Positions 21,281 to 42,339 of a stretch of 64,000 nucleotides of DNA are shown here, in pieces. Under the pieces are notes generated by a model. The model saw only the letters and a list, made by a program, of their open reading frames with translations, did not search any database and was not told where the DNA came from. The first letter of the stretch is position 1; the number at the start of each line of letters is the position of its first letter. This DNA is from Hyphococcus sp. (GTDB lineage: Bacteria; Pseudomonadota; Alphaproteobacteria; Caulobacterales; Parvularculaceae), in NCBI GenBank assembly GCA_028281665.1, contig JANQJK010000016.1, positions 124,001 to 188,000 on the forward strand, in the 5' to 3' direction. Made by a program: the position numbers and the translations under genes.

Positions 21281-21356
21281 GCCGCAATAGCTCAGCTGGT
21301 AGAGCACCTGATTTGTAATCAGGGGGTCGGGAGTTCGAGTCTCTCTTGCGGCACCA
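21281..21356 (+). tRNA. tRNA-Thr (anticodon TGT), island integration target
   Basis: The 76-base cloverleaf has acceptor GCCGCAA/TTGCGGC, anticodon stem CCTGA/TCAGG with loop TTTGTAA (anticodon TGT), a T arm with GGGAG-TTCGAGT-CTCTC and encoded CCA. Its last 17 bases recur at 42323-42339, so it remains intact beside the integrated island. Confidence 0.96.
21340..21356 (+). repeat. Left attachment site (attL core) within tRNA-Thr 3' end
   Basis: TCTCTCTTGCGGCACCA covers the end of the T arm, the acceptor strand and CCA, and is identical to the copy at 42323-42339. The matches stop one base further out on each side. Confidence 0.92.
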
Positions 21357-21504: not shown

Positions 21505-22668
21505 ATGGCGCGAACGATCCATAAGGCGCTTACCGCAATAAAGGCTCGCAAATTGGGTGCTGGGAAGCATTGCGATGGCGGTGGACTTTGGCTCGTCAAA
21601 GCTTCTCGCGAACGAGGCAAATGGATTTTTCGCTTCACGCTTTCATCGAAGAGGCGTGAAATGGGGCTTGGGTCGTGGCCGGATGTTTCTCTTCTTGAAG
21701 CTAGAACTATGGCGCAGGAAGCCCGTGCTAAAATCCGCAATCACATCGACCCAATTGATGAACGCCGCATTCGCCAACGTGTGGTGAAACCAATGACTGT
21801 CGAGGAGGCTGTGCGCGATTGTTTCAAATCACGACAAGCGGAACTTAAGGGCGACGGCAAGAGTGGTCGCTGGCTCTCACCATTGACGGTGCATGTCTTT
21901 CCCTCTGTTGGCAATAAGCCAATTGAGCAGGTTGATCAGCATACTCTGGTCGATGTGCTTTCGCCGATCTGGCAAACAAAGACAGATGCGGCGCGAAAGT
22001 CCCTTAATCGCATCAATCTCACTCTGAAGCATGCTGCTGCACTTGGACTTGATGTTGATCTTCAAGCCACCATGAAAGCGCGTGCACTACTCGGCAAACA
22101 ACGCCATGTTGTTACGCATATCCCATCACTTCATTATGCTGACATGCCCAAGTTTTACAATTGGTTGTGTTCAAAGCAGCAAGTGTCAGTCTTTGCGCTT
22201 CGTTTTTTAATCCTCACGTTGGCTCGCACCAGTGAGGTGCGTTTTGCTCGTGTTGATGATGTGCAAGATGGCGTTTGGATAATCCCCGCTGAGAATACAA
22301 AATCCAACCGAGAGAATCGTGTGCCACTCACCGATGAAGCGTTGAATGTTATCTTGATGGCGCGCACCAACGACGATCAATCGTTACTTTTTCCGTCTCC
22401 GCGCGGTAAGGCGTTGTCGGATGCCGCCATGTCAAAGTTCATGAAGGACAATGGATATACCGCGCGTCCGCATGGATTTCGTGCAAGTTTTCGTACTTGG
22501 GTAGAAGAGCAAACTGACGCCCAGTATGAAGTCGCCGAAGCTGCACTTGGTCACACTGTCGATGGCGAAGTTGCGCGTGCCTATCAACGGTCCGACCGTT
22601 TTAAGAAACGGAAGAAGCTACTTGAACAGTGGATGGCGTTTCTAACCGAAGAGAGTTCAACAGCATAG
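21505..22668 (+). CDS. int: P4-type tyrosine integrase of the island
   Basis: This 387-residue tyrosine recombinase integrates and excises the island at tRNA-Thr. The N-terminal DUF4102-like arm-binding domain is seen in GKHCDGGGLWLVKASRERGK and MGLGSWPDVSLLEARTMAQE. A core-binding domain follows from about residue 95. Catalytic residues are the Arg of ARTSEVRF, the Lys of NTKSNRENRVPLT, HGFRASF (H-x-x-R), LGHT and the Tyr of ARAYQRSD, so the set is complete. It reads away from the tRNA. Family and target are well matched: such integrases usually use tRNA 3' ends. Confidence 0.95.
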   Translation: MARTIHKALTAIKARKLGAGKHCDGGGLWLVKASRERGKWIFRFTLSSKRREMGLGSWPDVSLLEARTMAQEARAKIRNHIDPIDERRIRQRVVKPMTVEEAVRDCFKSRQAELKGDGKSGRWLSPLTVHVFPSVGNKPIEQVDQHTLVDVLSPIWQTKTDAARKSLNRINLTLKHAAALGLDVDLQATMKARALLGKQRHVVTHIPSLHYADMPKFYNWLCSKQQVSVFALRFLILTLARTSEVRFARVDDVQDGVWIIPAENTKSNRENRVPLTDEALNVILMARTNDDQSLLFPSPRGKALSDAAMSKFMKDNGYTARPHGFRASFRTWVEEQTDAQYEVAEAALGHTVDGEVARAYQRSDRFKKRKKLLEQWMAFLTEESSTA

Positions 22669-22956: not shown

Positions 22957-23024
22957 TAGACCTCCTATTGATTACAGCAAAGCGTATAGAAAGCTGTGGT
23001 CAAAATCAAAAAGGAGAATGTGGG

Positions 23025-23249
23025 ATGGCAAGCAAGCGATGGACAATCTGGGCTATTCTGGGTTCTTTGGTCGGATTAGTTTTTGGCTACTTGGTTGAAG
23101 TAAAGACAAAGGCCGCCCGCGACTCTTTCGGTGAATGGCTTACTGCGTGGGCCTATGACTATGGCGGTTGGTCTTGGTTGGCGTGGCTACTGATCGGGGC
23201 AGCGATAGGTGGTCTGATTGGCTGGCTTCGAAGCCAAAATTCAAACTGA
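23025..23249 (+). CDS. Small membrane protein with two predicted helices
   Basis: The 74-residue protein MASKRWTIWAILGSLVGLVF has one membrane helix near residues 7-25 and a second near 48-66 (WSWLAWLLIGAAIGGLIGWL), joined by a polar loop. AAGGAG lies 9 bases before the ATG at 23025, which is why I prefer it over an upstream ATG. It could belong with the operon that follows after 184 bases, but nothing shows this. Function unknown. Confidence 0.6.
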   Translation: MASKRWTIWAILGSLVGLVFGYLVEVKTKAARDSFGEWLTAWAYDYGGWSWLAWLLIGAAIGGLIGWLRSQNSN

Positions 23250-23433
23250 GACACACCCCTTTGATGCCAGCAACATGCGAACACTTGCGATTGTCGACGA
23301 TATTAATTGCGTGGGCAAAACAATCACCGATTGGCAGGCGGTCCTAATTTTCCACATTTTTTCTTTTCACTATTTCTGCTTATCATGATTTTTGTATAAA
23401 GCCACTACCTTCCGCTGAACCAGGGAATCGGAA

Positions 23434-23610
23434 ATGCGAACCGACGAAGAGACAATTCAACTGAAGGTATCCAGTGAACTCAAAAAACAAATAAAACTAA
23501 CCGCCTTGAAGAAGGATCAAACCGTCAGAGAGTTTGTTCTCATGGCGTTATCGAAAAACGGAATAAAAGTTCCAACATCAGAACTTAGAGATAGACGCAA
23601 ATCAAACTGA
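23434..23610 (+). CDS. Ribbon-helix-helix-like small DNA-binding protein
   Basis: The 58-residue protein MRTDEETIQLKVSSELKKQI continues KLTALKKDQTVREFVLMAL. It shows the ribbon-helix-helix layout: a short strand (IQLKV), helix 1 (SSELKKQIKLTALKKD) and helix 2 (TVREFVLMALSK). Such proteins act as autorepressors or antitoxin-type regulators. It ends 15 bases before the DNA methyltransferase gene, so it probably leads that operon and could time its expression as controller proteins do in other R-M systems. That role is inference. Confidence 0.65.
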   Translation: MRTDEETIQLKVSSELKKQIKLTALKKDQTVREFVLMALSKNGIKVPTSELRDRRKSN

Positions 23611-23625
23611 CATCGGGTACGAAGA

Positions 23626-24672
23626 ATGAGCACGAATGCTTCTGTTGTTGATCTATTTTGCGGAGTTGGCGGGCTGACTCATGGCTTTGTCAAGGAACGC
23701 ATTCCAGTAGTGGCTGGAATTGATATCGACGAAGATTGCCGCTTTCCATACGAGTTCAACAACAATGCGCCATTTATAAATCTGGATGTGGCTAAGGCAA
23801 AGTCGGCTGATATCAGCTCGCTCTTTCACAAGGGTAAAGCGAAAGTGCTCGTTGGATGTGCGCCTTGCCAGCCATTTTCAACTTACAACTATCGGAACGA
23901 TGATCCGAATTGGAAACTATTAAACGCATTTGGCCGGTTAATACGTGATGTTAAGCCGGATGTTGTTTCAATGGAAAACGTACCGCAGCTTGTAAAGTTT
24001 AGGCACGGGCGTGTTTTCAAAAACTTTCTTAGGGTATTAGATAGATGCGGTTACCATATTTCATGGGATATCTTATTTGGTCCCGATTATGGCCTTGCCC
24101 AAACTCGTTCAAGGCTAGTTTTGCTTGCTTCTCGGCTTGGTCCGATCGAATTACCTCATCCCTCTCACAAATATAAACATAAGACAGTACGAGACGTTAT
24201 CGGAAAGCTTCCGCCAATTGCCTCGGGTGAAATCTCTGCATCAGACCCGCTGCACAGATCATCAAAGTTGTCGCCGACAAATCTTAGCCGCATAAAAATA
24301 TCGGCACCCGGAAAAACATGGCGCGACTGGGATAAACGACTCGTAACGCGATGCCACAAGGAAGATACCGGGAGAGGATATTCCTCAGTATATGGGCGAA
24401 TGGAATGGCATAAGCCTTCTCCCACAATCACTACACAATTCTATGGTTTCGGAAATGGTCGGTTTGGGCATCCGGAACAGAATCGCGCTTTGTCTCTGCG
24501 CGAAGGAGCCCTTCTGCAATCATTTCCGAGAAACTATCGCTTTGCTCGACCAGGAGAGGCCATCCATTTTAAGAAAATTGGACGAATGGTCGGAAATGCC
24601 GTTCCAGTACGGCTTGCTCAGCTGATAGCAAGGTCAATAAAAAGGCATCTGACGGAGAACGGGTATGCCTAA
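23626..24672 (+). CDS. DNA (cytosine-5) methyltransferase
   Basis: The 348-residue enzyme transfers methyl from SAM to C5 of cytosine in DNA. All core motifs are present in order: I (VVDLFCGVGGLTHGF), IV with catalytic Cys (GCAPCQPFS, about residue 85), VI (MENVPQL), VIII (QTRSRLVLLAS), IX (KPSPTITT) and X (GRMVGNAVP). A target-recognition segment of about 90 residues separates VIII from IX. It overlaps the following ATPase-nuclease gene by 8 bases, so the pair is translationally coupled. The recognised sequence cannot be told from the protein. Confidence 0.93.
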   Translation: MSTNASVVDLFCGVGGLTHGFVKERIPVVAGIDIDEDCRFPYEFNNNAPFINLDVAKAKSADISSLFHKGKAKVLVGCAPCQPFSTYNYRNDDPNWKLLNAFGRLIRDVKPDVVSMENVPQLVKFRHGRVFKNFLRVLDRCGYHISWDILFGPDYGLAQTRSRLVLLASRLGPIELPHPSHKYKHKTVRDVIGKLPPIASGEISASDPLHRSSKLSPTNLSRIKISAPGKTWRDWDKRLVTRCHKEDTGRGYSSVYGRMEWHKPSPTITTQFYGFGNGRFGHPEQNRALSLREGALLQSFPRNYRFARPGEAIHFKKIGRMVGNAVPVRLAQLIARSIKRHLTENGYA

Positions 24673-26626
24673 CTCTCCGTATGAAATGACGCTCAGTTTG
24701 AATGTCCTTGAGCATTTGGGAATTAATTTATACAGCAATGTACCTTCGGTCTTATCCGAGATCGTCGCAAATGCCTGGGATGCCGACGCGGAGTTGGTTT
24801 CCATCGAATTGTCAGCAGGCGACACTATTGTCATTTATGATGATGGTATTGGAATGACACGATCAGATGTCAACGATCGATTCCTGAGAGTTGGTTATCA
24901 GCGACGAAAGGAACAACCAGCAGAAACAGAAAAAAAGCGAAAACCAATGGGGCGCAAGGGTATAGGAAAGCTGTCGCTATTTTCCATTGCGAACAAAGTA
25001 GAGATTCATACGATCAAAGACGGTGAAAAGAGCGCTCTCAAGATGAACCTTCTTGATATTCGCAAGCAAATTCAGGGCAAGAAAGAAGGCACTTACAGGC
25101 CTGATGAATTAGACGAAGGTGTGGTTAATTTTTCGAGGGGGACACGAATAATTTTATCAGATCTGCGTAAACGCAGGACAACAAGCACTGCAAAGGCTCT
25201 GCGCAAAAAAATTGCACGCAGGTTTTCGATAATTGGAGCGAAAGAAAAGTTTGCCGTAAAAGTTGACAACAAAAAAGTTACCCCGGCCGACAGAGACTAT
25301 TACTCCAAGCTTCAATTTTTGTGGACTTACGGGAAGCAGCCAGATCTAATAAGACTATCCAAAGAAAGCTTATCCAAAGCAGCGGATAGCCGATCGGAAG
25401 TGTTGAAAGGTAAAAGAATTAAGATTGACGGATGGATTGGTACTGTCCATGAGTCCAGGATGCTCAAAGACGAAGAGAGTGGAGACAATCTCAATCGCAT
25501 TGCGATTTTTGTTCGCGGAAAAATGGCGCAGGAAGATATTTTAGACGATTTTGGCGAGCGCGGTGTCTATGCAAGTTATTTAATCGGTGAGTTGCGGGTT
25601 GATACTCTTGATGAAGATGATCAAGAGGATGCAGCGACTAGCAGCAGGCAAAAGATTGTCGAAGATGATCCCCGATATCAGGAATTGCAGGAGGTTTTGG
25701 GTCATGAACTAAAGTACATTCAGAACAGATGGTCTGAATGGAGGGCTGAGGAAGGGGCAAAAAAAGCACTAGAGATACCTGAAATCAGTAGGTGGATGGA
25801 AGGATTGCCTGCGCCACAGCGTTCGCGTGCAAAGAGTTGGATCGGGAAAGTTTACCGTGTGAAAACAAATAGCGAAGATGAAAGAAAGCAGTTGTTAAAA
25901 CACTCTGTATTCGCATACGAATTTTATAAGGCAAATGAACGATTGGAAGACCTTGAATCAATCGAAGATGATAAACTAGATGCTGCCTTAGAGATATTTA
26001 GAGATTTAGATACTTTAGAGTTTAGTCTATACGGTCAGATTGTTAGACAACGACTAAGTATCATTGAAACACTTCAGAACAAAATCGAAGAGAATGATTT
26101 AGAAAAGGCAATTCAGGAGTATATTTTCGATCACCTTTGGTTGCTTGATCCGCATTGGGAGCGAGCGGACACTGAACAATTTATGGAAAGGCAGGTTGGT
26201 AAACTCTTTGCTGACGTTGACGCCAAACTATCCGCAGAGGAAAAAGCTTCCCGCATTGATATCAAATACAGAAAAACTGCTGGCACGCATGTCATTATTG
26301 AACTTAAGAGACCGGAACGAAGAGTGGATCTGCCCGAACTAACGAAGCAGATCGAAAAATATCGAAGCGGGCTTGCTAAGCTTTTAGAGGACCAAGGCCT
26401 TGATGAGCCGATTGAAATAATTTGTTTGCTAGGAAAGCGTCCATCAGAATGGAATAACCCAGGTGGAAAGAAACTTGTCGCAGAAGCACTAAAACCATAC
26501 GGTGCTCGCGTAATACTGTACAAAGAGATGCTTCGAAACGCTTACAAGAGCTACGAAGACTATCTCAACCAGAAGAAGACAGTGGATGGCCTTCAAGATG
26601 TAATTCGAGCAATTGAAGAGTTTTGA
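24665..26626 (+). CDS. GHKL (MutL/MORC/Hsp90-like) ATPase fused to a PD-(D/E)XK-like nuclease domain
   Basis: The 653-residue protein begins with a GHKL ATPase: N-box LSEIVANAWDADAE (Glu32, Asn36, Asp39), G1 DDGIGM (59-64) and G2 GRKGIGKLS (96-104). A central region (about 150-420) may hold the S5-like transducer and helical linkers. The C-terminal part has EKAIQEYIFDHLWLLDPHWE and then SRIDIKYRKTAGTHVIIELK (about 530-548), a D...E-x-K arrangement typical of PD-(D/E)XK nucleases. Overlap with an m5C methyltransferase makes a restriction role likely; MORC/MutL-like ATPases are known in some R-M operons. Nuclease assignment is by motif only. Confidence 0.78.
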   Translation: MPNSPYEMTLSLNVLEHLGINLYSNVPSVLSEIVANAWDADAELVSIELSAGDTIVIYDDGIGMTRSDVNDRFLRVGYQRRKEQPAETEKKRKPMGRKGIGKLSLFSIANKVEIHTIKDGEKSALKMNLLDIRKQIQGKKEGTYRPDELDEGVVNFSRGTRIILSDLRKRRTTSTAKALRKKIARRFSIIGAKEKFAVKVDNKKVTPADRDYYSKLQFLWTYGKQPDLIRLSKESLSKAADSRSEVLKGKRIKIDGWIGTVHESRMLKDEESGDNLNRIAIFVRGKMAQEDILDDFGERGVYASYLIGELRVDTLDEDDQEDAATSSRQKIVEDDPRYQELQEVLGHELKYIQNRWSEWRAEEGAKKALEIPEISRWMEGLPAPQRSRAKSWIGKVYRVKTNSEDERKQLLKHSVFAYEFYKANERLEDLESIEDDKLDAALEIFRDLDTLEFSLYGQIVRQRLSIIETLQNKIEENDLEKAIQEYIFDHLWLLDPHWERADTEQFMERQVGKLFADVDAKLSAEEKASRIDIKYRKTAGTHVIIELKRPERRVDLPELTKQIEKYRSGLAKLLEDQGLDEPIEIICLLGKRPSEWNNPGGKKLVAEALKPYGARVILYKEMLRNAYKSYEDYLNQKKTVDGLQDVIRAIEEF

Positions 26627-26723
26627 GAGTTGCGTCGACACGTTGTCGTATATTGACAATCCTAACGTACGCAATTGGGATGCGGGCAGAAGGCATGGTC
26701 AATCTGGAGCCTAGCAACCGATA

Positions 26724-27923
26724 TTAGTGTACAGGTAACGTTTTCAATGTGAATGTCTTGGATTGCACGCCGTCAACCATAATACGAGCAAACGCCTTAT
26801 AATTTTCTTGGCCGAGCAGATTTTCAGCATCAACGTCATGAAACTGTCTTGCTAGGGTACGCGCATCGGGTGCGCCAACACGAAATACAAAGATCGAGCC
26901 GACATTACCAAGGATAGCGTCTAATACCGGTTTACTTAGTTGCGAGGTATGCTGATGCGCGAGCACCAATCCTAAGCCATACTTCCTAAGCTCGGCCAGT
27001 AGATCGGCAAACGCTTCGGTTGTAAATGAATGAAACTCATCCACATAGAGGAAAAACGGCCGCCGTTCCTGTTCTGTCAAGCTATGTCGCGTGTACGCGG
27101 CATGAGCAATGCTCGTTGTTATCAATCCACCCAAGACATTTGCAATGTCGGCTCCTAGTCTTCCCTTTGCAAGATTGACAATGAGGTGGCCGCCATCATC
27201 CATGATTGTTCGGAAACGGATAGGTTCGTCGGGGTCGCAGAGTACCTTTCGAACTTGCGGCTGTGAGAGAAAAGCACCGAGTTTGTTAGCGATTGGCGCA
27301 ACAGCGTCTGAAGCCGTTTTGTATTTGAGCGCTTTAAACTCATCGCGCCAGAACTTTTGAACGGCGGGATCGGATACTCGCTCTAGAATCCTTGCTCGGT
27401 ATTCATCATCAAGAAACATCGGTACGACATCTTGTATGCTTGCGCGCGGTTGTTCCAGCAATGCGAGAAAGGTGTATCGAAGCAAGTGTTCCATACGAAC
27501 ACCCCATGCATCAGACCATTGCGTTTTCAACGTGTGGATCAAGCCAGACGCGACCAACGAGCGATATTCGTCAGACACAAAAGTGAGGGGATTATACCCA
27601 TAGCGACATTCGGGGTCGGCGGGGTTCCAATAGATTGATGTTTCCGCAGCTTCATCTGTAACTATCTCGGCTAGATCACCGTGTGGATCAACAAGGCAAA
27701 AGCCATTTCCTAATTGCATATCTTGTCGGATCATATTGAGCATCAGGGTCGATTTTCCTGTACCCGTTTGGCCGACAATGTATGTGTGTAAGATGCGATC
27801 ATCCTGATACATCCCAAAGTGCTGGGGCCGGTATCGGTGATCTGCTATTCCAATTTTAATGATGTTTTTGTTTTCATGTATCATGGCCATTTCTGATAGA
27901 ATGCTTTTCATGATTGCTTGCAT
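26724..27923 (-). CDS. VirD4/TraG/HerA-type ATPase (conjugative coupling-like)
   Basis: The 399-residue soluble ATPase has Walker A YIVGQTGTGKSTL (about residues 48-60), then the FCLVDPHGDLAEIV strand typical of the TraG/HerA clade, Walker B FFLYVDEFHSF (about 285) and a sensor region LVLAHQHTSQLSKPVLDAIL. No membrane helix is seen, unlike classical VirD4. Its start overlaps the serine recombinase gene by up to 50 bases (ATG at 27923; an alternative at 27884 overlaps less), so the two are one operon. Likely roles are DNA translocation during transfer or a partner in recombination; defence-type HerA proteins are an alternative. Confidence 0.8.
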   Translation of the reverse strand: MQAIMKSILSEMAMIHENKNIIKIGIADHRYRPQHFGMYQDDRILHTYIVGQTGTGKSTLMLNMIRQDMQLGNGFCLVDPHGDLAEIVTDEAAETSIYWNPADPECRYGYNPLTFVSDEYRSLVASGLIHTLKTQWSDAWGVRMEHLLRYTFLALLEQPRASIQDVVPMFLDDEYRARILERVSDPAVQKFWRDEFKALKYKTASDAVAPIANKLGAFLSQPQVRKVLCDPDEPIRFRTIMDDGGHLIVNLAKGRLGADIANVLGGLITTSIAHAAYTRHSLTEQERRPFFLYVDEFHSFTTEAFADLLAELRKYGLGLVLAHQHTSQLSKPVLDAILGNVGSIFVFRVGAPDARTLARQFHDVDAENLLGQENYKAFARIMVDGVQSKTFTLKTLPVH

Positions 27924-29460
27924 TTTTTAGTTTCGTACGAATACCATCACGTCGAACTTGTTGGGCAGTCGTAATAAGTTTTTGAATGTCTGCGTTATTC
28001 ATGCCGGGGCATGGTCGAGAATTGGGACGAGTAGGGGCACCTGAAACGCATTTTGCGTATTCTTGTGCAGTATGTAGCCAATTTGACAGCTTAAAACCTA
28101 GCTCTTCTTCGTACACGAGCCGGTTCGAGGTCGCGTATTCAAGCAGGAGGCGTTTTTCATAGCCTTTTGCGCTTTTATAAAGCCCCACATAGTTTTTTGC
28201 GAGTTCGAGAAATGCACGGACATCATCTGGCGCGTTAATAGATTTAGCTGTGTCGTCTAGTCTTTCCTGACAGGTTGTTTTTTCAAGAAGTAATTGCTCA
28301 CGTTTTTGGCGAAATGTTTCGTTATCAATCACACGGTCTGTGAGTGCATCTGTAAGGGCTTCCAGCTTATCTTCCGTCTTTGACAGCTTCTGTCGTAATG
28401 TACGCAATAGCTCGTTTGTATTGAGCTCAACAGATATCCAATCCGATACCATTTCCGTTAATCTGTCGATGACTACAGGCGTCAGTTTCACGGATCGCAA
28501 TTTTACTGTCACTGCCTCTTCGATCCGATCTTCTCGGAACGTCTTAATAGGACAATCGCGGGTCTGGCAGCGATAGTAGACGCGTTTCTTTTGAGCTTCG
28601 GGAACCATAGAACGGTGACATAAGCCACACTGGAATAACCCACGATAGAGATGATTGTGTCGGGTGACTTTCTTTCCGCATTTACCATTTTTGACATCTT
28701 GTACGCGGTTAAACAGGTCCGAGGAGATTAGAGGTTCATGAATACCCGCAAACGTATCTCCGGTTGTCGAGATGCGAATAACCCCGCAATAAAACGAGTT
28801 AGACAACATACTTTCAATCAACGGCTTGCTCGGCGGGTTTCCGGCCCTATTCGTCAAGCCACGATTTGTCATTTCGATCCGAAGCGTCCGTATCGAATAT
28901 TGCCCCGTTGCATAGAGCTCGAACATTTCCTTGACTAACGGCGCTCGCTGTGGATCAGGGGTTTTGGGGTTTCCTCCGCCATTGTCGAGATATCCGAGCG
29001 GCGCGTTGAAAGGGTACAAGCCTTGTTCTAAACGGCCCCGTAGTCCTTTCAGTGTCTCTTCCCGAAGATTTCGTATGTAGTCCGCGGCAATGACGGCTTG
29101 AATATCAGCCGATAGCCTTCCACCACGAGAGCGAAAATCAAGCGTCTCTGTTACGAAGTGAATATCGACGCCGGCGTCGTTTAGGTCGCCGATAACAGCC
29201 CAATCTTTGAAGTTCCGTGCAGAGCGGTCAATTTTGTGAATGACAAGATCAATATTTCTTTTCTTGTACAGCTTGGCGACCATTGCATTGAAAATGCGCC
29301 GGCCTTGCTTTGCAGCCGTCTCCTTTTCTTCAAACCATTCAACGATCACTAAGTTGTTGTTTCTGGCGTATGCGAGAATGGCGTCTTTTTGTGCTTCAAG
29401 TGAAACGCCATCTCCCTGTTTCGCAGTTGAAACGCGAACATAGCCGTAGCAGTTTTTCAT
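27874..29460 (-). CDS. Large serine recombinase
   Basis: The 528-residue protein has the resolvase/invertase catalytic domain with nucleophile Ser11 in YGYVRVSTAKQ, IDLVIHKIDRSARNFKDW and the helix E region. A Recombinase domain follows (YPFNAPLGYLDNGGG, PLVKEMFELYATGQYS, IESMLSNSFYCGV), then a zinc ribbon (FQCGLCHRSM with a later YRCQTRDCP) and a coiled coil (about 350-410). This is the layout of serine integrases and transposases, so it could move a sub-element of the island. Its distal end overlaps the ATPase gene. The matching att sites were not identified. Confidence 0.92.
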   Translation of the reverse strand: MKNCYGYVRVSTAKQGDGVSLEAQKDAILAYARNNNLVIVEWFEEKETAAKQGRRIFNAMVAKLYKKRNIDLVIHKIDRSARNFKDWAVIGDLNDAGVDIHFVTETLDFRSRGGRLSADIQAVIAADYIRNLREETLKGLRGRLEQGLYPFNAPLGYLDNGGGNPKTPDPQRAPLVKEMFELYATGQYSIRTLRIEMTNRGLTNRAGNPPSKPLIESMLSNSFYCGVIRISTTGDTFAGIHEPLISSDLFNRVQDVKNGKCGKKVTRHNHLYRGLFQCGLCHRSMVPEAQKKRVYYRCQTRDCPIKTFREDRIEEAVTVKLRSVKLTPVVIDRLTEMVSDWISVELNTNELLRTLRQKLSKTEDKLEALTDALTDRVIDNETFRQKREQLLLEKTTCQERLDDTAKSINAPDDVRAFLELAKNYVGLYKSAKGYEKRLLLEYATSNRLVYEEELGFKLSNWLHTAQEYAKCVSGAPTRPNSRPCPGMNNADIQKLITTAQQVRRDGIRTKLKNASNHEKHSIRNGHDT

Positions 29461-32897: not shown

Positions 32898-35354
32898 ATG
32901 TTGGCTCTTTTATTTCACGTAATTCTGATTCGTCGATGTTTGTGCTGTTTGGTGATATTTATAGGTTCAATAACTTCGACTTATGCAGAAAGCCATTTTA
33001 AATGGGATGCGAGGGAGGCGCGTGTCGACGCTATTGTTGGTACAGTTAGTCACGAAACAATCCCATTCAATTATTTTCAAGGGGCGAAGGGCCTTACCAT
33101 TGATGTATATTGCCCTAGTGATTATCTGAGGTATTTCTCGTTCAACTTTTTTAGTAAACGTCAGCGTCATCGCCACATATCTAGATGTGAAAAACTAAGG
33201 GAGTATCTTTCTGTTTCCATATTTGCGCCTGGCAATAATCCTAGATCAACCGGAGGTATACGAATTAATTTAGAAGTGCCTGCTGATGCGAAGCTGGGCA
33301 AATATAGAGGCTGGCTTCAAATTAAAAGAGGCTCGCGACGAATTGGTTTACCGTTACCGCTAGGGGTAAAAATCCGCGATGGTATTATGGGTGAAATGCC
33401 AAGTGCAATTGCGGTTACTTCGAGAGATCGAATTGCAATCGATGACAGCAGTGGAACTCGCTACGTTCAGGACGAGGTCCTTGTCAATTTGAAATCCGAT
33501 GCGGATATTTTGGAGTTTTCGAACTATATTTCAACGCAGAACGCATTCATAATTGGCGGCATTGCCGAGTTTGGTATGCTTCAGGTGCGATTTAACGGCG
33601 ATCCAACTGAAGAAACATTAGACGGGTATGTTAGTGAGCTTCGGTCTTTGAGCTATGTTGAGTCCGCTCAAAGAGCATGGGATTACCCGGTTACATTTAT
33701 CCCAGACTTTGGAAACGATCCTGAGTTTGAAGAAAGTAGCTGGACTGATTTTCCAGCATTCGGACGAAATGCACCGCTAGAATACGTACGGTTCCCAGAT
33801 GCTTGGAGCTTAGTTTTTGGCAGTATTGATGACGCGCCAAATGCCGGAAGCGGTATTAAGATCGGTGTTGTTGATACAGGGTTTGACTTTGAACACGAAG
33901 ATTTACGTAACAATATCGATTTGTCCAGTTCTCAGCCTGGTACGGATTTCGCTCTCTTGTGTGATTTGTTACACGGCAATGCTGTTGCTGGTGTAATTGG
34001 CGCAGAAGCCAATAATTCAGTTGGTATTACCGGCGCAATGTGGAACCCATCATTAATTTTACGCGGCGCTTCGTCGACGATATGTTTAAACGATATTAGC
34101 ATTCTAAATCCGCCGTTCCTACACAAGTATTCTTTGATTGAAGAATTGAGAAGTGCCGTTCGACAGGGGGCGCGTGTCATTAATGGAAGTTTTGTTGGTA
34201 TACGACAGGATTCTGCCGAAGCCTTTGCAGAGCGCGCTGATTTTTTAGAGTTGATTGGAGAAGACTGTATTCCGAATATCCCATGCGCTCAAGACGTTCT
34301 ATTTGTGTTTGGAGTTGATAATCTGTCTACTGCTATTACGAAGGATTTTTCAAATACATTTCCGGCTGCGCTTTCTCTAGAACCTGTCTATAAAGGACGT
34401 GTGATCAAGAACGTACTAAGTGTTGCAGGTATCGGGACGGAACCCGGATTTTCGTATCGCCCGTCGCTAGGAGAAATAGTTTCTCAAGGAGGGGATGTAT
34501 CCGTGGCGGCACCTGCTAGCGTCTATACGACTCAAAGAGCCAACGAATATAGTCGAGACGCGGGTGCATCCTATGCAACGCCACTTGTTTCAGCCTTGGC
34601 TGGGCTCGTATTTACCGAGAATCCATCTTTGAGCCCCGCTGATGTCAAGCGCATCATTATTGAAGGCGCTTGCGCCGGAGGGAAAAAAGTTGAAGGTGAA
34701 AATTTCTATGTTATTGATGCGGTAGAATCTGTGAAGTTAGCTAAATCCAATACTTCAGTAGACCCCAATGATTATTGTAACGAGCCGCTTCCGGCCGACG
34801 ATACTCTTCGAGTAGTAGGAACAGTTGAATCTGCCGTCGAAAACCCCGGTCTAGCGAGTGAATTTTTTCCAGACGGTGTGCAAATTGGCGACCCATTTGA
34901 AATATTAATTACGGTACGAACTAACCTGCCGGATAATTATCCGAGCGACACAATCGGAAACTATGGAAAGTTAGCTAACGACGCCATACCCGCAGTTACA
35001 TACTTAGAAATGCGCGTGGGTACAAATGTTTATATAGCAGAAGTTGGCGATTTGGAATCAAATTCAAACGTCGTGATAATAACAAATAATGGCTTCGGTT
35101 CCAGTTGTGAAACGCCATGCGATACCTTTGTACTCACTGTCTTGCCAATACCCAGAGAGAACAAAGAATGGGGATTTTCGATGACTATTGAAGATGAGAC
35201 CGCCAGTCTTTTCAATTCGGATGAGTTTCCAAATATCGAGGTATTGCTTCCCAGTGTTGGATTTTACTCGCGATCGCAAGAGAGTGACAATTTTATCTCG
35301 TTCAGCCGGTGGAGCGGCGGCGCCACTTCAATAATGAGGATTACTGAACCATAG
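32898..35354 (+). CDS. S8 family (subtilisin-like) serine protease, exported
   Basis: The 818-residue protein has an N-terminal export signal (hydrophobic run then TSTYAES) and an N-terminal beta-rich region of about 290 residues of unknown type. A subtilase domain follows with Asp326 (IGVVDTGFDFEHEDL), His359 (LHGNAVAGVIGAE) and Ser558 (GASYATPLVSALAGL), so the triad is complete. About 200 C-terminal residues form a further beta-rich domain that I do not recognise (EILITVRTNLPDNYP, SFSRWSGGATSIMRI). A role in the envelope or outside the cell is likely. Its AT-rich codons match the island. Confidence 0.85.
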   Translation: MLALLFHVILIRRCLCCLVIFIGSITSTYAESHFKWDAREARVDAIVGTVSHETIPFNYFQGAKGLTIDVYCPSDYLRYFSFNFFSKRQRHRHISRCEKLREYLSVSIFAPGNNPRSTGGIRINLEVPADAKLGKYRGWLQIKRGSRRIGLPLPLGVKIRDGIMGEMPSAIAVTSRDRIAIDDSSGTRYVQDEVLVNLKSDADILEFSNYISTQNAFIIGGIAEFGMLQVRFNGDPTEETLDGYVSELRSLSYVESAQRAWDYPVTFIPDFGNDPEFEESSWTDFPAFGRNAPLEYVRFPDAWSLVFGSIDDAPNAGSGIKIGVVDTGFDFEHEDLRNNIDLSSSQPGTDFALLCDLLHGNAVAGVIGAEANNSVGITGAMWNPSLILRGASSTICLNDISILNPPFLHKYSLIEELRSAVRQGARVINGSFVGIRQDSAEAFAERADFLELIGEDCIPNIPCAQDVLFVFGVDNLSTAITKDFSNTFPAALSLEPVYKGRVIKNVLSVAGIGTEPGFSYRPSLGEIVSQGGDVSVAAPASVYTTQRANEYSRDAGASYATPLVSALAGLVFTENPSLSPADVKRIIIEGACAGGKKVEGENFYVIDAVESVKLAKSNTSVDPNDYCNEPLPADDTLRVVGTVESAVENPGLASEFFPDGVQIGDPFEILITVRTNLPDNYPSDTIGNYGKLANDAIPAVTYLEMRVGTNVYIAEVGDLESNSNVVIITNNGFGSSCETPCDTFVLTVLPIPRENKEWGFSMTIEDETASLFNSDEFPNIEVLLPSVGFYSRSQESDNFISFSRWSGGATSIMRITEP

Positions 35355-35545: not shown

Positions 35546-37561
35546 CTATATCGGGTCATTTTTCGGTATTCCCGAACTTTCAGGAGGAGTGGAGGGCGGC
35601 AGATCGTCAGGAACTTCTTCATTGCCCTTACCGTGATGCCGTGTGCCGTACCGTTCCTCCATAATTCTTTGCAATGCGTTCTCACTTCGCTTCGTCACAA
35701 AGTCACTTAATGGATCGGAAGGGGCGCTCACATCAACAAACCTGTGTGACTTGTGATACAGACCAAAACGATATTTCGGTAAATCTAATATTGTGTCGGG
35801 TTTCACGCGCATTGCCTTCGCCATAAAAGAAGCATCGTTTGGAGATGACGTAGCGACAATTTGAGTTGCTGTGTTTCCAACTACTGTATCGACACTCAGA
35901 TTTGGGCGGTCACGTATTTGTTGTAGGTTTTGGAATGCAATCGTAATCCCAATACCGGCTTTACGAGCTTGAGTAAGCAATTTGCTCATGTTCTCATCGA
36001 AGTATTCGTGTGCCTCGTCAATGATGACAAAAACTTCCCCGAACTTTTCAATGGCATTGTCGTCGCTTTCATCAACGCGCCTAGTCGCCGCCTGTACGAT
36101 CATCGCTATGTATAGACGGCCAAGAAACTCGCTCCCGTGTGCTCCTAACGCTTCTGCGTGAGTATCTAGCAAGATGAGCGCACGGTCTTGCAGTTCATTG
36201 AACATATTGAACCGATTTTGGGTGGCGCTAAATAATCGATCGAATGTGGCGTTCGTGAATATCTTGTTGAGTTTTCCGCGAAGCGCATCGCGTGTCTGTT
36301 TGTATCGAGGCAGTCCCCAATCGCGATCAAAGAACGTTTGAGCTGCAGGCGTCAATTCCTCCACGTGTTTACGATACGGTTCAATGCCATCGTCAACCAG
36401 CAAGTCTGAAAGCGTCTTAAAGGTTCCGTTTGGGATGGCGAGAGTAAGTTGAATAATGTAATCGAGAATGACCTGCTGCGGGTCAGTCATTCTTCCATCA
36501 AGTACGCCTTCAAGGACGAAGCGAATTAGCCACCCCGATTTATTGATGACTTTTTCGCGCTCTTTGACCGCAAGCTTTTCCCACCCAACATCAAATAGGT
36601 TAAGCCCCAAGTCCCATTCTGGATTGAGGTATGTAATAAGATCTTCAGGTAAATCTAGCTTTGCGAGCTTTTTGGGAATGAGTTCACGCTGACTGTCAAT
36701 CACGACGACATGACCAGTCCTCGTGTTTTCTTCGTCGAACATGTCGAGCAAATCACACTTGATGAGGTACTCAATCATCGTAGTTTTGCCGGCGCCAGTA
36801 TCGCCCATGACCATGGTGTGCATGTTTCGATCTTGAAGGCCTATTCCTTGCGCTCGATATTGCAGTCGAACGAGTGGTGTTCCTCCCAAATAGGCGTTGA
36901 TGATTTCAGCGTCGCCACGATATTCGCTGATACGGCCATTTATGCGGTAGTTTCGATCAATTCGTCTTTTGACCTCGGCAAATGTCCCGTTTTGTTCATA
37001 CGCATAATCGACGTCTACGGCTATCTGATTGACTTCCGTATCGGTGACCTGGCGCAGAGTCGTGAAAACGCCGCCACCGGAAAACTTGTACGGTGTGAGA
37101 ATATATATAAGCGCATCGGCGAACGCCTCGTACCGCTCGGTATTCTGATTGAGTTCGATATATTTGTTAAGCCGGTCGAGATAACGTCCGCCTTCGATGG
37201 ATGTTGCCGTTAGCGGTCGTTTTTTTGGAAGCTCTAACCCTTCGAGTTCAAGCAAGTCAGCCGTCACTTCTAGCATAAGGTCGCTTGTTAGTTCAGCTTC
37301 TTTCAGTTTTTTTGCGACATATTCAATTGGCGGCTTGAGCGCTTTTGCTCGTTTCTCTTTGGCGGTTATCTCTTTTTGCTTCGCCTTTTCCTCACGCGCA
37401 GGTTTGGTTTTGAAATACAACCACGTCGATAGCCAAATCACGACGGCGAAGAAGGCAAACCAGCCCCATCCTATTGCTTGACCAATGCCAATGAGGCCAA
37501 AAAATAGGAAAATGCAAAACGCCCAAAACGCGCCAACGAGAAGCGGGTTGTCGTCGTTCAA
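35546..37561 (-). CDS. Membrane-anchored TraG/VirD4-like coupling ATPase
   Basis: The 671-residue protein has two N-terminal membrane helices (about residues 7-27 and 31-50), as in VirD4-type coupling proteins, then a charged linker. Walker A is MVMGDTGAGKTTMIEYLI (about 265-282), with DSQRELIPKK after it and Walker B VFVIIDEAHEYFDENM (about 530). A GIGITIAFQNLQQIRDRP sensor segment follows, and a Pro-rich tail ends the protein. The start is a TTG overlapping the previous stop (TTGA). With a Replic_Relax protein two genes upstream, a DNA-transfer role is likely. Confidence 0.85.
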   Translation of the reverse strand: MNDDNPLLVGAFWAFCIFLFFGLIGIGQAIGWGWFAFFAVVIWLSTWLYFKTKPAREEKAKQKEITAKEKRAKALKPPIEYVAKKLKEAELTSDLMLEVTADLLELEGLELPKKRPLTATSIEGGRYLDRLNKYIELNQNTERYEAFADALIYILTPYKFSGGGVFTTLRQVTDTEVNQIAVDVDYAYEQNGTFAEVKRRIDRNYRINGRISEYRGDAEIINAYLGGTPLVRLQYRAQGIGLQDRNMHTMVMGDTGAGKTTMIEYLIKCDLLDMFDEENTRTGHVVVIDSQRELIPKKLAKLDLPEDLITYLNPEWDLGLNLFDVGWEKLAVKEREKVINKSGWLIRFVLEGVLDGRMTDPQQVILDYIIQLTLAIPNGTFKTLSDLLVDDGIEPYRKHVEELTPAAQTFFDRDWGLPRYKQTRDALRGKLNKIFTNATFDRLFSATQNRFNMFNELQDRALILLDTHAEALGAHGSEFLGRLYIAMIVQAATRRVDESDDNAIEKFGEVFVIIDEAHEYFDENMSKLLTQARKAGIGITIAFQNLQQIRDRPNLSVDTVVGNTATQIVATSSPNDASFMAKAMRVKPDTILDLPKYRFGLYHKSHRFVDVSAPSDPLSDFVTKRSENALQRIMEERYGTRHHGKGNEEVPDDLPPSTPPESSGIPKNDPI

Positions 37562-37929
37562 AGCTCGAAGCTTTCGTCCTCGGCTTCGGTAGCATTGCCT
37601 TCGATCATCGCTTTCAGCTTAGGCAGGTTCTCTTTGGCTTGATCGATAAACCCTTTGATTTCACCGTTGCTACGCCCCACATGCTCAAGCCCGCTCTTTT
37701 CACTGTAGAGCAGACTAGACACTCGAACATTCCACTGTCCGTCATAAGATTTCGCGGCGTCACGATCCGCAGGACAGTCCCGTTCGATCACGATAACATC
37801 TTCAAGTCGGTTTTGTTTGATGATCGCTTTCTCTTCTTCCGTGAACTCAACCTTCAGGGTTACCGTTGGGTAGGTCTTCTTGAAGACCATTCCGGTCGTT
37901 CTGTCGCCTGTCTTGATATCAACTTTCAC
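37558..37929 (-). CDS. Hypothetical protein of the mobilization-like operon
   Basis: The 123-residue acidic protein (MKVDIKTGDRTTGMVFKKTY, then TVTLKVEFTEEEKAIIKQNR, ending in an Asp/Glu-rich tail) is not recognised. It overlaps the upstream Replic_Relax gene by 11 bases and the downstream ATPase gene by 4, so it belongs to the same operon. It may be an adaptor between them, which is inference from position. Confidence 0.6.
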   Translation of the reverse strand: MKVDIKTGDRTTGMVFKKTYPTVTLKVEFTEEEKAIIKQNRLEDVIVIERDCPADRDAAKSYDGQWNVRVSSLLYSEKSGLEHVGRSNGEIKGFIDQAKENLPKLKAMIEGNATEAEDESFEL

Positions 37930-38953
37930 GAGTGCCCCCCTTTCGAATTAGGCCATAGGATGTATCGTCGGTATACGTCCGGCTTCTCCACGCAGTGTGG
38001 AAGAATGTGCGACAAACTTCTTGTATTGTCGAGAAGCGATAGAATTGATGGAGATCAGGATCGGTATCGGCAAGTGCGCGCCTAATGTTCAATAAGTGTT
38101 TGTCGCCATCAGTAATGAACAGCAGGGTGAAATATTCGAAATCGCCGTACGCCTGGTAGCGGGATCGGAACATCTGTCCGCGCAAGTACCGATCGTATTT
38201 TGCGATTTTATAACAAATATCTTGGGCATGATGATGCGAACGTCTCCGTTGTATCGTGACGGTTGCCCGATCGACTTCGATTAGGAAGAGGGCGCGCCTG
38301 CCGGTTGAACAGTTTTCCAGGACAAAGCCAGCATCCGGAACGATCCTGTTCTCAGCTGAGTTAGGCGCTGCAACATGATCGACGGTTTCGCCAATCAGGT
38401 TTTGGCCGTCGCGTTTTCTTCGATATTCAACGAACGTCTGAATAAGGCTGTAATCGGGGAGGGCGCAAACGTCGCGTTCGAGCGTCATCAGGACATCAAC
38501 GGTTGCGATCCGGTGCTCCATTGTCGGCGTCCATCGTGACGTTCGATTGACTGGCCTATACGGTGCAATCTGACGCCCGCAGGCTTCATATTCGCCCGCC
38601 AGCAGCGCGTGCCCCCGCCTCGTCAGAAAGTATGCCTTTGGCATTTTCCCACGGCCATAAATCGGCACATTACCGAAATGCCCGAGCAGTTTTTGACGCT
38701 CAAGGCGCAGCAGCATATTGGAGCACGACTTTGGCCGTAGGCCGGTAACCGTCGCCACCTGCTGTATGGTGAGGTGACGATACCGTTCAATATATTCCAG
38801 CGCTGTTAAAACCTGCTCCGATAGAACAACGCCGCTTGCGTGAGGCATATTGTAAACCCGTCCAGCTATATGAAGGAGATGGAACAGATACTGCCAAGGA
38901 CATTGTTTGTAATCGGTTGGTATGCTGAGCGACACGTACCGGTACGCAGGCAT
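37919..38953 (-). CDS. Replication-relaxation family protein (Replic_Relax)
   Basis: The 344-residue protein starts with a winged-helix region (ALEYIERYRHLTIQQVATVT, GLRPKSCSNMLLRLERQKLL, KAYFLTRRGHALLAGE). The core follows: HRIATVDVLMTLERDV, then IVPDAGFVLENCSTGRRALF with LIEVDRATV. A PD...E-x-D pattern in this place is typical of Replic_Relax proteins, found on plasmids and integrative elements and thought to start DNA processing. Translation may begin at the internal ATG at 38848 (MPHASGVV) instead. It heads an operon with the small protein and TraG-like ATPase. Confidence 0.75.
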   Translation of the reverse strand: MPAYRYVSLSIPTDYKQCPWQYLFHLLHIAGRVYNMPHASGVVLSEQVLTALEYIERYRHLTIQQVATVTGLRPKSCSNMLLRLERQKLLGHFGNVPIYGRGKMPKAYFLTRRGHALLAGEYEACGRQIAPYRPVNRTSRWTPTMEHRIATVDVLMTLERDVCALPDYSLIQTFVEYRRKRDGQNLIGETVDHVAAPNSAENRIVPDAGFVLENCSTGRRALFLIEVDRATVTIQRRRSHHHAQDICYKIAKYDRYLRGQMFRSRYQAYGDFEYFTLLFITDGDKHLLNIRRALADTDPDLHQFYRFSTIQEVCRTFFHTAWRSRTYTDDTSYGLIRKGGTRES

Positions 38954-42322: not shown

Positions 42323-42339
42323 TCTCTCTTGCGGCACCA
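42323..42339 (+). repeat. Right attachment site (attR core)
   Basis: TCTCTCTTGCGGCACCA is a perfect copy of the last 17 bases of tRNA-Thr(TGT). Backbone sequence resumes after it. Confidence 0.92.

Follow-up and report, generated by a model that had tools for sequence, protein, structure and literature searches.

A probable mobile BbrUII/HgiDII-family (paraMORC3) restriction-modification operon headed by a predicted ribbon-helix-helix autorepressor in Hyphococcus sp.

Proteins that combine a GHKL ATPase with a nuclease were described as paraMORC3 (Iyer, Abhiman, Aravind 2008), with GHKL and S5 domains, a C-terminal restriction endonuclease-fold domain with an E-D-ExK signature, and gene neighborhoods of the restriction-modification (R-M) type (PMC2292703). 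The same enzymes are represented by an NCBI equivalog, the BbrUII/HgiDII family, and a stand-alone relative from V. cholerae, VcSduA (Shedu type I-D), was tested in 2025: the substitutions E27A (ATPase) and K557A (nuclease) each abolish phage protection (PMC12137116). Here, we analyze a 64,000-nucleotide stretch of Hyphococcus sp. (assembly GCA_028281665.1, contig JANQJK010000016.1, positions 124,001 to 188,000; hereafter the window), in which genes for a small ribbon-helix-helix (RHH) protein, a 5-methylcytosine (m5C) DNA methyltransferase (MTase; M) and a GHKL-nuclease protein (R) follow each other. We consider it likely that they form a mobile type II R-M operon of the BbrUII/HgiDII (paraMORC3) family, with a GHKL-gated nuclease and an RHH autorepressor. 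The original prediction had read the locus as an R-M operon and regarded its single-polypeptide GHKL-nuclease as possibly undescribed. The first part stands; the second does not, as the fusion and its R-M setting are already known, which settles the main claim to novelty.

The list of open reading frames (ORFs) of the window confirms three genes on the plus strand in the order RHH, M, R, with gaps of +15 and -8 bases: the predicted RHH autorepressor (58 aa, 23434..23610), M (348 aa, 23626..24672) and R (653 aa, 24665..26626). The RHH gene was called from its ORF and from homologs directly upstream of an MTase elsewhere, M from Pfam, PADLOC and TIGR00675, and R from NF050001, PADLOC and an AlphaFold2 model.

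The R protein scores 807.5 bits on NF050001 (restrict_BbrUII, 'BbrUII/HgiDII family restriction enzyme') over residues 6-650, against a curated cut-off of 550, and matches Pfam HATPase_c_3 (5.9e-20) and PADLOC REase_II (1.4e-91). Like a member of this family, it exceeds the cut-off along its whole length and adjoins an m5C MTase; in a comparison with BbrUII and HgiDII that covered R and M, the window operon stands apart by the RHH gene at its head, and its target site is predicted. The GHKL ATPase domain (residues ~26-137, 24740..25075; HATPase_c_3 covers 27-137) carries E32, N36, D59-G61-G63 and the GRKGIGK stretch (96-102). In an alignment of 36 sequences (A4: the window, a Candidatus Thiobius locus, L003, and 34 of 72 viral-contig loci) the residues E32, N36, D59, G61, G63, G96, R97, K98, G99, G101 and K102 are invariant (36/36), and I100 is nearly so. 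Left out of this alignment were R genes that are split (L090, L124, L125, L127), the distant or incomplete loci L128-L147, and near-duplicates of rows already included; from another alignment (A2) L034 was omitted for a stop codon within the stretch. A putative S5/middle region with approximate bounds is placed by Foldseek alignments at residues ~159-330 (25139..25654), and the predicted PD-(D/E)XK nuclease core at residues ~480-620 (26102..26524) by conservation, secondary structure and profiles. The residues E480, D532, E546, K548 and Q562 of this core, among them the D...ExK motif (D532, E546, K548), are likewise invariant in all 36 sequences; in a second set of 12 sequences, D replaces E546 in two archaeal plasmid copies. 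With its intact GHKL motifs, C-terminal E-D-ExK domain and R-M neighborhood, the window R agrees with paraMORC3 as characterized in 2008, a description that, as far as it is known here, mentions no RHH partner (PMC2292703).

An AlphaFold2 model of R built on the 36-row alignment has a mean predicted local distance difference test score (pLDDT) of 84 and a predicted template modeling score (pTM) of 0.67; a single-sequence prediction (pLDDT 42.9) was set aside for it. The C-terminal part of the model contains helices at 480-489 and 556-576 (with Q562) and strands at 506-510, 530-536 (D532), 542-547 (E546) and 583-589, and their order is that of the PD-(D/E)XK core. When the model was compared with the PDB using Foldseek, TRAP1/Hsp90 came first (E 4.1e-13) and MORC2 was also found (E 4.4e-11) among the best 50 of 1001 matches; these alignments outrun the GHKL domain, mostly spanning 380-475 columns with gaps, and no S5 model was matched. 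Kinship of the C-terminal domain with Shedu nucleases is indicated at the profile level: Pfam SduA_C (PF14082, DUF4263) matches 4 of the 36 R family members at E<=0.01 (best 3.4e-5), and hhalign of residues 474-653 of R with five SduA_C domains gave a probability of 89% (E 2e-6), compared to 0.2% for an N-terminal control. The original prediction had staked itself on a nuclease at this end of R; motif, core secondary structure and SduA_C kinship are all present, and the check by hidden Markov model (HMM), model and profile comparison did not refute it.

Based on the kinship with Hsp90 and MORC and on the VcSduA mutant, ATP-driven clamp closure is plausible. A different view sees in R an ordinary type II endonuclease that depends on Mg2+ and can do without ATP, with the GHKL part serving only as a scaffold for dimerization and DNA holding. 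HgiDII is listed as a conventional GTCGAC endonuclease, and the three-gene operon contains no helicase or translocase gene, both of which fit this view. It is harder to reconcile with the invariance of the named GHKL residues in all 36 aligned sequences, and with the loss of protection in the VcSduA ATPase mutant E27A (PMC12137116), and we regard it as somewhat unlikely.

The resemblance to VcSduA, in which a GHKL N-terminus and a PD-(D/E)XK C-terminus also share a single chain and are both required for phage protection, invites another alternative, namely that R is a nuclease of the Shedu type, blind to methylation, while M has some other target. The SduA_C kinship of the R family and the description of VcSduA, as far as that report goes, without an MTase partner (PMC12137116) would agree with it; the window operon differs from VcSduA in having a methylase. 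We find this alternative very improbable, since NF050001 takes its name from restriction enzymes and the R genes of this family are closely linked to MTase genes. Among 59 full-length R loci (at least 600 profile positions and >600 bits), 58 have an MTase within 700 bases of R, as 32 tandem M-R, 25 convergent and 1 divergent pair; many of the 59 are near-copies, so that the count is one of loci and not of independent events.

The MTase itself matches Pfam DNA_methylase (4.7e-57, of the C5 kind) and PADLOC MTase_II (1.3e-91) and scores 136.1 bits on TIGR00675 dcm (cut-off 100.65); its PCQP, ENV and GNAVP stretches are invariant in 10 aligned sequences, the window included (A3). These matches, with R above the NF050001 cut-off, bear out the R-M operon of the original prediction. 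M is presumably cognate to R. As M.HgiDII was characterized as a GTCGAC m5C MTase (PMC5867850), GTCGAC is the predicted target of the window M by family homology. Avoidance of this site was considered and rejected: the window contains 30 sites against 31.4 expected (maximal-order estimate) and the host genome 2071, against 444 for the same string read backwards, counts that speak neither for nor against the target assignment. With 2071 sites in the genome, self-protection would be needed. The operon lies between two GTCGAC sites, at 23293 and 26634, and L003 has none; with 30 sites in 64 kb, we take the flanking pair as chance.

A profile scan of viral contigs yielded 72 R-family loci; a single-protein scan of viral contigs found no relative. 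The record of an Escherichia phage (L062, 3498-6546) names its copy 'ParaMORC3', adjoining a Dcm protein, and paraMORC3-MTase pairs are convergent in this phage and in virus-derived contigs (e.g., L096, L101, L105). Genes for Vsr endonucleases lie near the R-M pair in L064 and L067 (annotated) and in L080 and L119 (by eye), as expected because an m5C MTase adjoins. Among relatives of the host the R family is rare: of 62 genomes in the host's own family, 1 has an R that exceeds the cut-off, as do 2 of 398 in a phylum sample, and a protein search of the order found it in 2 of 398 genomes, the host's own genome being included each time. Family counts at E<=0.001 (59/62 and 388/398) were left unused, as most of these are low-scoring hits in the ATPase region of other GHKL proteins. 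In a genome of the same genus (G032), an MTase gene is followed by an R gene (42% identity, E 4.6e-44) that the end of the contig cuts off after 121 residues, with no RHH match beside it. By blastn, 23 of 5426 E. coli genomes match over 5-7% of the query, in the MTase part in the 10 matches listed. Two further loci (L042 and L038) pair MTases (56% and 49% identity with the window M) with GHKL proteins (751 and 760 aa) whose similarity to the R family is confined to the ATPase part.

The gene at the head of the operon encodes a protein whose matches to six Pfam families all fall short of the cut-offs (E 0.015-0.17; 0.039-0.17 for the RHH-type models); it has no NCBIfam or PADLOC match at E<=1, and a match to the PHROG 'Arc-like repressor' at 5.3e-4. 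From HMM libraries alone the RHH assignment is weak; however, the gene keeps its position in four further loci, a recurrence not expected by chance. The RHH-M-R order, on whose recurrence the original prediction had staked itself, was found in five divergent loci: the window, L003, L063, L071 and L183. In L003 the RHH proteins are 50% identical over 54 aa (E 1.8e-13) and the R proteins 64%. L063 is a Rhizobium acidisoli plasmid with the RHH homolog directly upstream of M, where the incomplete gene table of PLSDB lists none, and L071 has the same order. L183, from the same class as the host and found through the RHH profile rather than through R, shows 41% identity over 54 aa (E 2e-11) for RHH, 46% for R and 66% for M. 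In three of the five loci the RHH stop overlaps the annotated or predicted M start. The RHH protein is probably a DNA-binding repressor, best read as a predicted plasmid-type autorepressor recruited by R-M systems.

RHH relatives were also found in other contexts. An RHH profile match at E<=1e-7 is present in 11 of 385 genomes of the class, and the surroundings of all 11 were examined. Four are in an R-M context: the window, a paraMORC3 locus (G1063), a type IIG-like gene (G848, PADLOC 3.7e-85) and an Eco57I-type MTase (G790, PADLOC 7e-179). Four others, three of them from one genus, have a ParA-like gene immediately upstream (identified by eye or from a Walker A motif); one has a Rep-like gene, and the remaining two are followed by an apparent phosphoenolpyruvate carboxykinase and an apparent transporter, these last three being judged by eye. 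On plasmids, 29 records have a tblastn match to the L063 RHH protein; contexts were obtained from 18 of these, comprising one paraMORC3 R-M system (L063), two GHKL-ATPase genes (the same proteins or nearly so), one IetA-S8 peptidase pair (IetA at 2.5e-144), six MazG-uracil-DNA glycosylase (UDG) pairs, six with ParA alongside and two with neither. The RHH gene comes first, its end overlapping the next start or lying within ~25 bases of it, in the R-M, IetA, GHKL, MazG-UDG and Caulobacter ParA-ParB cases. The other ParA cases mostly differ in that ParA is followed by a longer protein that ends in the RHH.

Some of these arrangements are of interest in their own right. An operon of RHH, MazG-type pyrophosphohydrolase and UDG genes recurs on alphaproteobacterial plasmids (L166, L167, L168, L186, L187, L072), and is possibly a module for nucleotide or uracil-DNA hygiene or defense. 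On Burkholderia glumae plasmids (L169, L188; 2414-4827) the RHH gene touches a gene for a 722-aa protein that, in L169, has a HATPase_c_3 match close to the N-terminus and a HATPase_c match close to the C-terminus. In L162 (5103-7953), an RHH gene, an Eco57I-type MTase gene and a converging gene for a PLD-like protein may form an R-M system with a PLD nuclease.

Taken over all contexts, which are raw, uncontrolled counts, we tentatively propose that very small, uncharacterized RHH autorepressors serve as interchangeable head-of-operon regulators, their stop codon often touching the next start. The modules behind them, unrelated to one another, either can damage the cell itself or serve plasmid upkeep (GHKL-nuclease R-M, type IIG-like and Eco57I-type R-M, IetAS, GHKL ATPase, MazG-UDG and ParA-ParB), and would come under delayed repression after cell entry; this could well be so, though we lean slightly to the doubtful side. 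RHH domains occur in 4% of the uncharacterized predicted defense clusters of DefensePredictor, in the part of that work considered here (PMC13092281). In a partial survey of the open-license literature we found no description of an RHH gene heading such an operon, which we do not take to mean that the arrangement is unpublished.

Several observations weigh against the overall interpretation. Methylation, cleavage and repression in the window operon are predictions, and the GTCGAC assignment comes from family homology, while specificity can drift within a family. The nuclease fold of R is predicted from secondary structure, motif and profile comparison: whole-model TM-scores were just 0.29-0.39 and no nuclease was named among the best 50 Foldseek matches, and the window R itself has no SduA_C match in Pfam at E<=1. 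Most R family members examined do not have the RHH gene, which is thus not essential to the system; the RHH profile detects it in 4 of the 59 full-length R loci, all four of which had contributed rows to the profile (L183 was found separately), and in four others (L033, L076, L083, L092) no sequence is left upstream of M to judge. Upstream of the RHH genes of six loci no significant shared operator was found, and upstream of the window RHH gene there is no sigma70-like promoter match; the rest of 23000-26900 has two, compared with a mean of 5.6 in shuffled sequence. The motif TATCATG, present in four of the six loci, was rejected as an operator, as dinucleotide shuffles give as many 7-mers shared by at least four loci in 43 of 300 runs; 8-mers shared by at least three loci fared no better (111 of 300 runs).

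The lack of a significant operator would also be expected if the RHH gene is a passenger, a partition or antitoxin remnant of the mobile element rather than a regulator of the operon, as would the position of RHH relatives next to ParA or Rep genes on plasmids. Moreover, in a tree of 46 R sequences built with a quick method, in which L183 is not included, the RHH-bearing loci are confined to one clade of six (four of the five loci, SH-aLRT 100). The other two members of this clade are L077, with no RHH match, and L076, cut off upstream of M; L090 (66% identical, with a split R) has no RHH match either. A passenger would not readily explain why the gene lies directly upstream of M in five divergent loci from different hosts, with a stop/start overlap in three, nor why short RHH genes of this family also precede two unrelated methylase genes. 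We judge the passenger explanation to be quite unlikely.

The autorepressor reading invites comparison with known R-M regulators. C proteins of type II R-M systems are helix-turn-helix (HTH) proteins, and the window RHH protein, having no PADLOC match at E<=1, shows no match to an HTH controller family. Both are small (predicted, in the window) DNA-binding regulators within an R-M operon, but C proteins are encoded immediately upstream of R, in the part of the source considered here (PMC12255303), whereas the RHH-like protein of the window is encoded upstream of M. The timing of expression "as controller proteins do" that the original prediction proposed for it is an analogy, and its relatives include plasmid partition-linked proteins. 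RptR resembles it as a small repressor that is the first ORF of type I R-M islands; by that description RptR has 79 aa and four alpha-helices (PMC12255303), which sets it apart from the window protein, predicted to be strand-helix-helix by alignment and weak HMM matches.

The operon is carried on an integrative island of ~21 kb (21340-42339) at a tRNA-Thr(TGT) gene (21281..21356, plus strand), the last 17 bases of which (21340-21356) form the left attachment repeat. The right repeat (42323..42339, plus strand) is identical to the 3' end of this tRNA gene in 17 of 17 bases, and a tyrosine integrase gene of the island (21505..22668, plus strand; Phage_integrase 2.6e-13, with arm and core-binding domains) lies next to the left one. 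In steps of 2 kb, the G+C fraction is 0.44-0.50 inside and 0.58-0.63 outside; the two steps that straddle the island borders give mixed values. Minus-strand genes of the island (26724-29460 and 35546-38953) encode a TrwB/VirD4-like ATPase, a large serine recombinase, a second TraG-like ATPase (mad8 5.5e-16) and a Replic_Relax protein, which suggests mobilization functions. The island also encodes an 818-aa subtilase (32898-35354; Peptidase_S8 2.8e-26), with weak PADLOC matches to subtilase (2e-7) and IetS (1.3e-5).

An island with its own integrase and attachment repeats could be kept by its cargo, and the operon might chiefly be an addiction (post-segregational killing) module, with defense secondary; that R exceeds the cut-off only in the window's own genome among 62 of the family points the same way. 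Addiction is compatible with defense, though, and the relatives found in a phage record and on contigs of viral origin fit either; given the MTase and partial R of G032, the genus is also not entirely without a relative. As the chief role of the operon, addiction appears unlikely to us.

We favor an R-M operon of the BbrUII/HgiDII family because of the NF050001 score, the active-site residues conserved in all 36 sequences, the model with its fold matches and the nuclease kinship, together with the MTase linkage, M.HgiDII, the VcSduA mutants and the five RHH-M-R loci. In such an operon, M would place m5C on a short site, predicted to be GTCGAC, and R would dimerize through its GHKL-S5 part, as Hsp90, MutL and MORC do. 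The Shedu-like PD-(D/E)XK domain at its C-terminus would cut unmethylated sites, with ATP binding or hydrolysis gating the nuclease or being coupled to it, and defense would follow. The RHH protein, from a family otherwise largely found beside plasmid partition genes, may dimerize and act as a repressor of the operon by binding to its own promoter; a copy that has just arrived would then be expressed freely before settling at a low level.

With ATPase and nuclease on one chain, the operon lends itself to testing whether the cycling of a GHKL ATPase controls a PD-(D/E)XK restriction nuclease. The newer part is the candidate regulator family, which links plasmid partition genes with R-M and other defense modules. 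Should these RHH proteins turn out to repress the operons at whose head they stand, R-M systems would have another type of small regulator alongside C proteins and RptR, and the family would offer a handle for finding defense operons.

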